A stretch of DNA of 37,532 nucleotides. Source: a virus. The translations under genes were made by a program, and so were the position numbers. The notes beneath the pieces are model-generated. The model searched no databases. It had not been told where the DNA came from and saw only the letters and a list, made by a program, of their open reading frames with translations. The stretch lies in IMG/VR virus record IMGVR_UViG_3300028840_003129, positions 1 to 37,532 of that record; one strand, written 5' to 3'. Below, in pieces: positions 13,287 through 35,230 of this stretch; the first letter of the stretch is position 1, and every line of letters begins with the position of its first letter.

Positions 13287-13292
13287 AGTATA
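13287..13292 (-). promoter_or_regulatory. -10 box of the HTH regulator gene
   Basis: Minus strand TATACT, seven bases before the ATG at 13279, no Shine-Dalgarno. Two bases overlap the operator 13291-13306, so binding should block initiation. Confidence 0.55.
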
Positions 13293-13306
13293 TGCCGCGC
13301 GGCATA
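13291..13306. promoter_or_regulatory. Operator copy 2, perfect palindrome TATGCCGCGCGGCATA
   Basis: A perfect 16-bp palindrome that serves as reference for the other six copies. It overlaps the -10 of the HTH gene 13016-13279. Confidence 0.7.
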
Positions 13307-13312
13307 GGGTTA

Positions 13313-30029: not shown

Positions 30030-30061
30030 ATTATGCTAAGCGGCATATAGTGGTCAGTCAA
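30030..30061 (-). promoter_or_regulatory. Promoter of the exonuclease-RecT unit with operator copy 4
   Basis: Minus strand TTGACT (30061-30056) is followed after 17 bases by TAGCAT, or after 20 by CATAAT. The operator TATGCTAAGCGGCATA (30032-30047, plus-strand reading) lies in between and overlaps the -10. The same arrangement occurs in the early promoter at 34439-34467. Confidence 0.6.
30032..30047. promoter_or_regulatory. Operator copy 4 (TATGCTAAGCGGCATA)
   Basis: Identical to copy 5 at 34438-34453 and 13 of 16 matching the symmetric copy 2. It lies inside the promoter of the exonuclease gene. Confidence 0.6.
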
Positions 30062-31286: not shown

Positions 31287-31834
31287 TCCACACCACCAAT
31301 CTCGTCGTAGTAGGCGCGAACGATCCTGACGGATCGATGAACGGAAGCGCTTTCCTCGGTCGGACACGAGCGCATTCCGTAGGCTGCGACCCAGCGAGCC
31401 GTCGATCCTCCACAATGATCCTTGACCCACCTAAGCCAACGGGCACCCGTCCGGATCTGACACTCCGCGCTCGATAGGCGCCGGTCACAGTGGCTAGGAC
31501 GAACGCGAAGACTGACGCCATGGGTCTGCATTAGACCGCCCTCGCCAAGCGAGCCGCGGCGCTCGAGCGACTCGACGAGAGGATCAAATGAACTCTCTCG
31601 CATCGCCATCGCGACGAGCAGAAGCGGATCGATCTCGGTCTCTTCTCCGGATTCCGCGAAGTGTCTCGCGAGCCGGAGAGCTCGTACATTGTCGACCGCC
31701 GGTTGAAGCGTCACGATCGCCGCCGCGACGGTGTCGAGTTCTTCTTCGGCACATTCGGCGACACGGATGAACAGGATCGTCATGGTGAGCGTCAGCGTCA
31801 GCATCACCGCGAACAACAGGATTTTGACCTTCAT
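31277..31834 (-). CDS. Membrane-anchored lytic transglycosylase (SLT fold)
   Basis: A 185-aa protein; ATG 31834 follows GGAGG and overlaps the preceding stop (ATGA). Residues 4-24 (KILLFAVMLTLTLTMTILFI) form a signal anchor or signal peptide. The mature part has the SLT catalytic motif: AMAMRESSFDPL with the catalytic Glu at residue 80, then GEGGLMQTHGVSL and AECQIRTGARWLRWVKDHCG, closing with WVAAYGMRSCP. This cleaves the glycan strands of peptidoglycan. In phages it is either the endolysin (a signal-arrest form), a virion enzyme or part of exclusion. It is unusual that it lies within the early replication operon rather than in a late lysis cassette, with no visible holin or spanin next to it. 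Confidence 0.72.
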   Translation of the reverse strand: MKVKILLFAVMLTLTLTMTILFIRVAECAEEELDTVAAAIVTLQPAVDNVRALRLARHFAESGEETEIDPLLLVAMAMRESSFDPLVESLERRGSLGEGGLMQTHGVSLRVRPSHCDRRLSSAECQIRTGARWLRWVKDHCGGSTARWVAAYGMRSCPTEESASVHRSVRIVRAYYDEIGGVEWR

Positions 31835-33047: not shown

Positions 33048-33416
33048 TCAGCGCTCCTTTGCTGGATTTGGAGTCTTTGATCCTGTCGAGCGCTTCGTCG
33101 TCGCTCCTCGGGAGTTCGAAAGGCCGATCCGGGAAGACCGGCGGCCGATATTTTTCGAGATTCGTGATCGTATGAACGCGATGAAAGCGAGCGAGGAGCT
33201 CTTCTCGCTCGACGCCGCCTTCAATGACGTCACAGGGGACGCTGACGTCGCAGACTTCGGCGGCGGTGTCTCGGTCGTCAGCGCGGCTTCCGACGTCACA
33301 GGAGACGTGAGCGGCGCAGGATCGGGTGTTGTCGTCGGTGTCGGCGGCGCAGTCTCAGCTATCGTACTGGTCTCGCGCTCGCCGGAGCTCCGCTTGGAGC
33401 TCGTTGAAATCTTCAT
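33048..33416 (-). CDS. 5' part of the split gene: Pro/Thr-rich amino-terminal region
   Basis: ATG 33416 has a fair Shine-Dalgarno (GAGGGAAG), overlapping the end of the replication-type gene by 62 bases. The protein starts MKISTSSKRSSGERETSTIA and runs into a linker-like region rich in Pro, Thr and Ser with a repeated SPVTS unit (residues about 38 and 62). After about residue 70 the sequence becomes implausible, while the frame of 32692-32997 becomes plausible. An A5 run on the minus strand at 33155-33151 is a possible slip or indel site: one extra base there would join the two frames. I treat 33048-33416 and 32692-32997 as parts of one gene of unknown function. Confidence 0.4.
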   Translation of the reverse strand: MKISTSSKRSSGERETSTIAETAPPTPTTTPDPAPLTSPVTSEAALTTETPPPKSATSASPVTSLKAASSEKSSSLAFIAFIRSRISKNIGRRSSRIGLSNSRGATTKRSTGSKTPNPAKER

Positions 33417-33987
33417 GTCTTCCCTCTCTGAGCGCTTCTTTCGCGCTCGCTTCGAGCAACCCGAGTTGCTCTGATTCGGACTGATCGAGAAGCGAGCCGT
33501 CAGCTCTCGTCATGAGCCTGAGACGATCTCCAGCTCGTTCGACGAAGCCTTCGACGCGCTCTGTCGACGCCAAGACGCGCTCGATCTGATCCTGCCGCGC
33601 GTTCGTCCGATTTTCCTCGCCTCCCCAAAATGGGTCCGCCGCTGCTACATCGATCGCGGCTCGGAGCTGAGTGACGGAGAATTCCTTCAGCCGACTCCGG
33701 ATCTTTTTCCGTCGCCCCCCCGTCAGTCGAGCTCTTGGACGCTTCGTGACGGTAGTCCAATGATCGAAGACGGCTTTGACGTCGTCATCATCGACGTCGT
33801 CGAAAACGTCAGGCTTCGCCGTTGGCGCGGCGTCTCCGAGATCGAAGTTCCGCTCGACGATCCAATCCGCTCCGGACCGGAGCCGCTTCGCGACGGTGTC
33901 GGCGTCGATGGCGTCAGCAATGACAGCGTCGACGATCCGAAGCATGGACCGGACGAAGGCGGCTCGGTCGTTAGGCTTCAGCGCCAT
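33355..33987 (-). CDS. Phage replication protein (replisome organiser-type C-terminal region)
   Basis: A 210-aa protein from ATG 33987 (MALKPNDRAAFVRSMLRIVD); the longer frame to 34047 would overlap more of the upstream gene. Residues about 78-150 contain FDHWTTVTKRPRARLTGGRR, LKEFSVTQLRAAIDVAAADP, then FWGG and RQDQIERVLAS, the pattern W..... R.KlT..Rr..I..RLk.fsve.L..AIdg.a..PF..G found in phage replication initiators and helicase-loading partners. A helical end follows. It likely acts in initiation of phage DNA replication. It lies second in the early leftward operon. Confidence 0.6.
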   Translation of the reverse strand: MALKPNDRAAFVRSMLRIVDAVIADAIDADTVAKRLRSGADWIVERNFDLGDAAPTAKPDVFDDVDDDDVKAVFDHWTTVTKRPRARLTGGRRKKIRSRLKEFSVTQLRAAIDVAAADPFWGGEENRTNARQDQIERVLASTERVEGFVERAGDRLRLMTRADGSLLDQSESEQLGLLEASAKEALREGRHEDFNELQAELRRARDQYDS

Positions 33988-34387
33988 CGCCGTCGCCGAA
34001 GTCGAGTCGCCCCTGGCGGGAATCCTTAATCGACTTTTCGAGCGCAAGCTTGGCGTCGTCGACGACTTGCGTCGCGGCTTTCACGGCGGCGGCGTTCGTC
34101 TTCTTCGTCTCAGTGTAAGCATCCCAGCACGTGACGATGACGCCGGTCTTGTGAGGCAGATCCGCGGGGTCGCAGTTCTTCGACGCATGGATCGCGTCAG
34201 CGAGCTCGGAGAGCGCCGCTTTTGCCTCCGATAGGGCGGTCGCTCGAGCGTCTTTCAGCTCTCTCTCAGCGTTCTTCAGCGCGTCGTACGCGCCGACGAT
34301 CTCTCTGAGCGCTCGAGCGGCTTGCTTCTGATCCTTGGATGTTGCCGCGCGATTCTTCGCGACGGCGTTGACGGTTTGACCTGTCAT
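33971..34387 (-). CDS. First gene of the early leftward operon, helical protein
   Basis: A 138-aa protein from ATG 34387 (MTGQTVNAVAKNRAATSKDQ) with AAAGGAAAG as Shine-Dalgarno. It is mostly long helix (QKQAARALREIVGAYDALKN, ERELKDARATALSEAKAALS) with a central GVIVTCWDAYTETKKTNAAA. Small early helical proteins of this type have no family I recognise. It is the first gene transcribed from the promoter with operator 5 and so is the most likely immediate-early product. It overlaps the replication-type gene by 17 bases. Confidence 0.55.
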   Translation of the reverse strand: MTGQTVNAVAKNRAATSKDQKQAARALREIVGAYDALKNAERELKDARATALSEAKAALSELADAIHASKNCDPADLPHKTGVIVTCWDAYTETKKTNAAAVKAATQVVDDAKLALEKSIKDSRQGRLDFGDGDGAEA

Positions 34388-34437
34388 GGCTTTCCTTTCG
34401 CTTTCCGGCCCCAAACGCTGAGCGCCGGAGTCAACAT

Positions 34438-34453
34438 TATGCTAAGCGGCATA
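34438..34453. promoter_or_regulatory. Operator copy 5 (TATGCTAAGCGGCATA) of the early leftward promoter
   Basis: Identical to copy 4. The outer arms extend to ATTATGC and GCATAAT, so it is a 20-bp inverted repeat. It is flanked by two direct copies of GAGTCAAC (about 34428-34435 and 34461-34468). Confidence 0.65.
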
Positions 34454-34467
34454 ATGCCGGGAGTCAA
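34439..34467 (-). promoter_or_regulatory. Early leftward promoter
   Basis: Minus strand TTGACT (34467-34462), 17-base spacer, TAGCAT (34444-34439). An alternative -10, CATAAT, lies three bases on. The operator fills the spacer and -10, as at 30030-30061. It drives the operon starting with the gene at 33971-34387, whose leader has AAAGGAAAG. Confidence 0.65.
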
Positions 34468-34662
34468 CGTCTCGCTCTCTGAGCGGTGATCTCGCCGCTC
34501 CGCTTCCATTGCAAGACTGGATCGTTGTGCTCGATCGTTAGTTTCACTGATCCCCCCCCATAGTGGTTCAAGCCTGAACCGCTCTCAGCTCCCTGAACGA
34601 CCGATAGGCTTGCTGGCCCCAACCACATAACGGGGGGCAAGCCGTTTCGGTCTATACAACCC

Positions 34663-34753
34663 CCCCGTCAGATTCGCCGCTCTCCTTCGGGGGGGGGAAC
34701 GAAGGCGTGGACGTCAGCTTTTTTCGAGCTGGCAACGGTCGAATCTGACGGGG
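34663..34753. repeat. 14-bp perfect inverted repeat enclosing two hairpins
   Basis: CCCCGTCAGATTCG (34663-34676) pairs with CGAATCTGACGGGG (34740-34753). Inside are CCTTCG/CGAAGG (34684-34689, 34700-34705) around a G-run and CAGCT/AGCTG (34715-34719, 34727-34731). It is the structural core of the non-coding region. Confidence 0.75.
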
Positions 34754-35008
34754 ATGCGAACGGCCATTTCTATTACCGACGCCACCGTTGAAAGGCGTCA
34801 AAGAGGGGAGGGGATCGACTGACGCGTCGCCGCTCTGAAGCGAGCCTACCGATCGCTGTGTTCGATCCCTCGACGTCAAAGCAACGCACGACAGGCGCAA
34901 AGGTGCGCCTGAGCTCCTCTCTGCTTTGCGGGAAGGGTTGAACGGTCCCGCGTAGCGAAGACCATGTTGGCGCGAAAGCGGCGAAGGTGTCAAGCGCTTC
35001 GAAAGGAC

Positions 35009-35039
35009 AACGCCCCTGCCGGGTTGCGACAGGGGCGTT
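35009..35039. repeat. 10-bp hairpin near the right end of the non-coding region
   Basis: AACGCCCCTG (35009-35018) and CAGGGGCGTT (35030-35039) with an 11-base loop. It has terminator-like stability, but neither strand continues with a T-run, so I do not call it an intrinsic terminator. Confidence 0.6.
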
Positions 35040-35065
35040 ATGGGGACCGCTCAACTCCAAATATC

Positions 35066-35091
35066 CTGAAGAGATAGACGCCTGACGTCAA
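35066..35091 (-). promoter_or_regulatory. Possible leftward promoter into the structured region
   Basis: Minus strand TTGACG (35091-35086); the 17-base spacing points to CAGGAT, and GATATT follows a few bases further. It lies next to operator copy 6. The match is weak, and it is listed only because the structured region needs a transcription start if it is an RNA. Confidence 0.25.
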
Positions 35092-35099
35092 GAACATAA

Positions 35100-35115
35100 T
35101 GTGCGGAGCGGCATA
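35100..35115. promoter_or_regulatory. Operator copy 6 (TGTGCGGAGCGGCATA, diverged)
   Basis: Keeps the right half-site CGGCATA and TGC of the left one. It is enclosed in a wider symmetry ATAAT...ATTAT (35096-35100 and 35115-35119). A TATTAT box starts at 35114 on the plus strand. Confidence 0.4.
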
Positions 35116-35201
35116 TTATAGAGATCGCGCCGATCCCTTTTGACGCCGATGTCAAGGGACGGAACCGGACGAAACTGGACAAAACCCGTCCGAAAAAAAC
35201 C

Positions 35202-35230
35202 TTGCGGGATTATGCCGCGCCGCATATTCT
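35202..35230 (+). promoter_or_regulatory. Rightward promoter with embedded operator copy 7
   Basis: TTGCGG (35202-35207), 17-base spacer and TATTCT (35225-35230), followed by the start of the rightward operon at 35246. Operator copy 7 covers the spacer and enters the -10. Confidence 0.65.
35211..35226. promoter_or_regulatory. Operator copy 7 (TATGCCGCGCCGCATA)
   Basis: Fifteen of 16 positions match the symmetric copy 2. It lies between -35 and -10 of the rightward promoter, a classic repression position. Confidence 0.65.

Follow-up and report, generated by a model that had tools for sequence, protein, structure and literature searches.

A strongly folding noncoding block between divergent operons of an uncultured phage, possibly a structured RNA or a replication origin

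The window analyzed here is the whole 37,532-base IMG/VR virus record IMGVR_UViG_3300028840_003129, which belongs to an uncultured phage for which no close relatives are known. The block under study is flanked by two outward-facing operons, one running leftwards from 34414 (the end of its first gene) and the other rightwards from 35246, with a gene-free stretch of about 620 bases between them; the divergent arrangement described in a first-pass annotation of this DNA was thereby confirmed. The leftward side carries the genes for a YqaJ/RecE-like exonuclease, a RecT-like annealing protein, terminase, portal and capsid, and the rightward side those for a DNA methyltransferase and small proteins without assigned function. 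Judging from this gene content, both operons would probably be early ones. The nearest open reading frame left of the block (33971–34414) gave no credible match, and the second (33355–34047) matched a replication-initiation family, phrog_16167, partially, over 89 residues. Further to the left, the gene at 31831–32550 matches phrog_15826 (E 2e-43). The related phage genes carry the annotation DpdA-like tRNA-guanine transglycosylase or, in Erythrobacter phage ZS04 (46% identity), DarB-like antirestriction protein, and the product possibly acts in DNA base modification or in some other role. A search for tRNA and tmRNA genes found none in or near the block.

As had been noted earlier for 34481–35039, there is no credible gene inside. 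Using a codon model trained on the genes of the phage itself, the scores per codon were negative in every one of the six frames (−0.09 to −0.16), compared to +0.14 to +0.28 for most neighbor genes in their own frame. Two TTG-start open reading frames, of 113 and 95 amino acids, scored −0.11 and −0.08 and had zero matches in PHROGs and Pfam. The negative scores in all frames and these blank searches rule out a hidden or decayed gene. What the block does contain is a series of helices, given below together with the putative initiator gene ("unstranded" marks features without an assigned strand).

33355–34047, minus strand: putative replication initiator / DnaD-like helicase loader gene (phrog_16167, E 9e-8, residues 85–173 only)
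34494–35112, unstranded: strongly folding noncoding block with an outer perfect 10-bp helix, 34494–34503/35103–35112 (z, tile rank, codon scores)
34481–34500, unstranded: hairpin GAGCGGTG-ATCT-CGCCGCTC, 8 bp on the plus strand including one G-U (folding)
34562–34583, unstranded: hairpin, 9 bp on the plus and 6 bp on the minus strand (pair probability 0.96 on plus, 0.78 on minus)
34599–34652, unstranded: long hairpin of three stacked helices of 6, 7–8 and 4–5 bp (pair probabilities 0.94–1.00 on both strands)
34663–34753, unstranded: perfect 14-bp stem, 34663–34676/34740–34753, closing a branched domain (stem search, pair probabilities)
34778–34799, unstranded: 6-bp hairpin (pair probability 0.92–1.00)
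34892–34911, unstranded: perfect 8-bp hairpin with a loop of 4 nt (stem search, pair probabilities)
34937–35055, unstranded: helix 34937–34949/35043–35055, enclosing the next hairpin (repeat search, pair probabilities)
35009–35039, unstranded: perfect 10-bp hairpin, which G-U pairs lengthen to as many as 15 bp on the minus strand (stem search, pair probabilities)

Thus, the three helices that had been singled out by name at first reading, i.e., the 14-bp stem, the 8-bp hairpin and the 10-bp hairpin, all exist, and the 14-bp stem is the longest perfect stem of the record with a loop of ≤70. The strands of the outer 10-bp helix are GCCGCTCCGC and GCGGAGCGGC, and the hairpin at 34481–34500 is in competition with this closing helix. 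The helix at 34937–35055 reaches 13 bp on the minus strand with one G-U, where the plus strand has an A-C mismatch.

Folded as RNA, 34481–35039 had z-scores of −4.9 (plus strand) and −5.9 (minus strand) against dinucleotide shuffles, whose mean it exceeded in stability by 36–40 kcal/mol, and none of the 100 shuffles per strand reached its stability. The foldable block widens to 34494–35112, with RNA z-scores of −8.0 (plus) and −6.3 (minus) calculated from 20 shuffles of each strand. The excess over dinucleotide shuffles on which the first-pass annotation had staked its proposal is hence present, with z of about −5 to −8. Among 67 tiles of 560 nt covering the whole record, the region ranked first, with an energy excess of −40 kcal/mol vs. 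a mean of −6.4 (sd 9.5) over the tiles. Of 107 long noncoding gaps taken from phage and genome loci elsewhere, one folded more strongly and another about equally, and neither of these two had Rfam matches. The region contains six perfect stems of at least 8 bp, a maximum that other tiles also reach, and at a resolution of 150 nt it is no outlier in the record; the folding excess belongs to the block of about 600 nt as a whole. The earlier description of the helices as too many and too regular therefore holds for the total folding energy, which is extreme, and not for the count of perfect stems, which other tiles equal.

The fold is nearly the same on both strands. With DNA parameters, the z-scores of 34481–35039 were −5.3 / −5.9, the same excess as with RNA, and 134 of the 199 predicted pairs were common to both strands, compared to about 50 in shuffles. 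G-U pairs were scarcer in the fold of the block (7–8%) than in shuffles (11–12%), a low share that is partly expected in any very stable fold. The helices at 35009–35039 and 34937–35055 favor the minus strand, gaining G-U where the plus strand has A-C, and the hairpins at 34481–34500 and 34562–34583 favor the plus strand. Since the fold is nearly strand-symmetric and the excess appears with DNA parameters too, folding cannot separate RNA from DNA, and with helices leaning both ways, it picks neither strand nor molecule.

Promoter candidates were obtained with an approximate E. coli sigma-70 matrix, from which the promoter rules of the host may differ. They are given below with the operator-like palindromes.

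34439–34467, minus strand: leftward promoter candidate TTGACT-17-TAGCAT (rank 2 on the minus strand, whole record)
35115–35143, minus strand: candidate promoter TCAAAA-17-TATAAT, which would transcribe the block leftwards (rank 5 on the minus strand, whole record)
35091–35119, plus strand: candidate rightward promoter AGAACA-17-TATTAT (promoter scan)
35202–35230, plus strand: rightward promoter candidate TTGCGG-17-TATTCT (promoter scan)
34437–34454, unstranded: operator-like palindrome TTATGC-N6-GCATAA over the leftward promoter candidate (palindrome search)
35099–35116, unstranded: degenerate copy of the operator-like palindrome (repeat/pattern search)
35210–35227, unstranded: operator-like palindrome inside the rightward promoter candidate (palindrome search)
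13290–13307 and 30031–30048, unstranded: further copies of TTATGC-N6-GCATAA, in short gaps before two other genes (pattern search)

The candidate at 35115–35143 would start transcription near 35108, a predicted start that falls inside the outermost helix. A third minus-strand match at the block (34993–34964) ranked 12 in the sigma-70-like scan, in which the best plus-strand match there had only rank 45. The −10 element TATTAT of the rightward candidate at 35091–35119 overlaps the −10 element TATAAT of the leftward one at 35143–35115, which would leave about 18 bp between the two start sites, and a start-site spacing of this size is usual for bidirectional bacterial promoters (PMC10268837). The 35091–35119 candidate has the same spacing to its operator-like site as the promoter at 35202 has to its own. 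The copies of the palindrome carry small deviations across the five sites, and most of them overlap the −35 and −10 elements or sit in the space separating these, in the fashion of operators. Because the degenerate search pattern was derived from the same sites, the low number of matches that it predicts by chance is in part a circular figure; the intergenic position of the good matches, at promoter-like sequences, is independent of this. These sites are candidate members of a phage-wide regulon. Between two of the operator-like sites, at 35157–35186, there are three 10-bp repeats of exact period (GGACGGAACC, GGACGAAACT, GGACAAAACC), which may form a binding array in phase with the DNA helix. 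An intrinsic terminator with a T-run was not found at the end of the block.

Overall, the block is a real statistical outlier in a sensible regulatory setting, and it is most likely either an RNA or a replication start site. The reading preferred here, with a probability of about 40%, is a leftward, operator-controlled structured RNA or leader of roughly 600 nt, the preference being due to the promoter arrangement and the missing hallmarks of an origin. Accordingly worded, the block would be a phage-specific structured noncoding element working as RNA. RNA polymerase would start leftwards at 35143–35115 and copy the minus strand of the block, using a promoter that overlaps an operator-like palindrome as well as, in head-to-head orientation, the rightward promoter. 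The resulting transcript of about 600 nt would fold into a closed multi-branched structure, its 5' bases pairing with 34494–34503, and might be either a separate noncoding RNA or the untranslated leader of the leftward operon. We infer that the promoter fires, that a transcript spans the block, that a repressor controls it and that the RNA has a function. The strong minus-strand promoter candidate leans towards RNA. On the opposite side, the same candidate (35143–35115) has a poor −35 element and may be a mere complement of the rightward TATTAT, whose position relative to its operator-like site is the one seen at the 35202 promoter. The folding excess is no smaller when DNA parameters or the plus strand are used, many pairs are shared between the strands, and neither a T-run terminator nor an Rfam family was found, all of which also speak against the RNA reading.

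The main rival, in our opinion a doubtful one, is that the block is the replication origin of the phage and acts as DNA, whereby its hairpins in single-stranded or supercoiled DNA would load the initiator, helicase loader or primase of the leftward operon. The strand symmetry of the fold and its equal excess under DNA parameters suit an origin, and so does the position upstream of both operon promoters, a frequent place for DNA elements. The putative initiator/DnaD-like loader gene begins about 440 bp left of the block, although its match to phrog_16167 spans 89 residues only, and the minimum of the cumulative GC skew is located at about 34.5–35 kb, although the switch in skew coincides with the switch in gene direction and is hence confounded. 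In phage origins beside initiator genes (lambda O / DnaD-type), to which the adjoining putative initiator and the many inverted repeats bear a likeness, iterons and an AT-rich element would be expected, whereas the block has neither: its direct repeats are few and short, with only the 3 × 10 bp repeat outside it (35157–35186), and the AT content in 60-nt windows is 0.35–0.47 nearly throughout, compared to 0.58 for the 99th percentile of the record. The missing iterons and AT-rich segment lean slightly against an origin; if it is one, it would be an unusual one, with many hairpins and no iterons.

It is quite unlikely that the block is a spacer or regulatory region whose folding results from chance palindromes and inverted duplications, with no selected structure and only the flanking operators and promoters being of importance. 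Other tiles have as many perfect stems, the 150-nt pieces behave in an ordinary way and two gaps elsewhere fold more strongly or about equally, all of which would fit such a spacer, but the total energy excess is far beyond the tile distribution of the record, and 100 shuffles per strand of the same composition were never as stable. An antisense or immunity RNA that acts in trans by pairing with phage operon leaders, in the manner of P4 cI / P1 c4 / N15, is very improbable and was weakened further, since for all the closeness of this noncoding region to early promoters and the presence of TCGCCGCT three times in the block plus one complementary copy, the words of at least 11 nt exactly complementary to the rest of the phage numbered 16 vs. 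a tile mean of 27 and were no longer than those of other tiles; complementarity is thus not in excess.

Returning to the structured RNA, a more far-reaching claim is that the block represents the first known member of a new large structured phage RNA family, whose leftward transcription would begin at a bidirectional promoter under operator control, located at the operon divide. This is unlikely; the long noncoding region and the excess folding are both present. To our knowledge, large structured phage RNAs are few and their function is mostly unknown. If the block is a true RNA, it would share operators with the divergent operons on the main regulatory divide and would offer an entry to the role of such RNAs. 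GOLLD and ROOL are large structured noncoding RNAs of hundreds of nucleotides found in phages and prophages (PMC12286853). The block is similarly noncoding, hundreds of nucleotides long, highly structured by prediction and phage-borne, but it differs in having no Rfam match, no nearby tRNA genes and no conserved homologues. In vibriophage ICP1, a very abundant noncoding transcript of about 800 nt was measured, likewise in a long ORF-less phage space away from tRNAs (PMC7567579), whereas the block described here is known from sequence alone.

No Rfam family matched the block, either at gathering score or in a permissive search. The minus strand at 34654–34735 resembled CyVA-1 RNA (RF02965) in a conserved-looking loop, CGAAGGAGA-CG-CG, between C and G runs, but reached 16.8 bits vs. 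the gathering score of 41.4 (E 1.2), with the outer helix unformed; this sub-threshold match is most likely due to chance. DNA searches of phages and plasmids (blastn in the phage collection) gave no match to the region. No similar intergenic region was found in viral_contigs with the flanking proteins, TerL, two RecT alignments, the DpdA-like protein and the operator 17-mer as queries. Likewise, none was found in genome_contigs searched with RecT or in the sets of 385 genomes each searched with portal and TerL, which were drawn from the classes of two genomes reached via RecT. The relatives recovered were distant for the structural genes (25–31%) and single-gene only for the recombination genes; phages with homologous flanking genes were not found in the collections searched, which may omit records very near. 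Single-sequence covariance models of two sub-domains gave nothing credible in phage and genome loci totaling about 3.2 Mb, and model R1 had no credible match in 289 genomes; weak matches in loci L149 (E 0.008), L237 (E 0.058) and L027 (E 0.066) were taken as chance. Strong excess folding was also observed in long noncoding gaps at L135:16852–17403, L105:5402–5876 and L280:13755–14957 (z −6.9, −5.3 and −5.1, respectively), which have no Rfam matches and the last of which is also located between divergent open reading frames.
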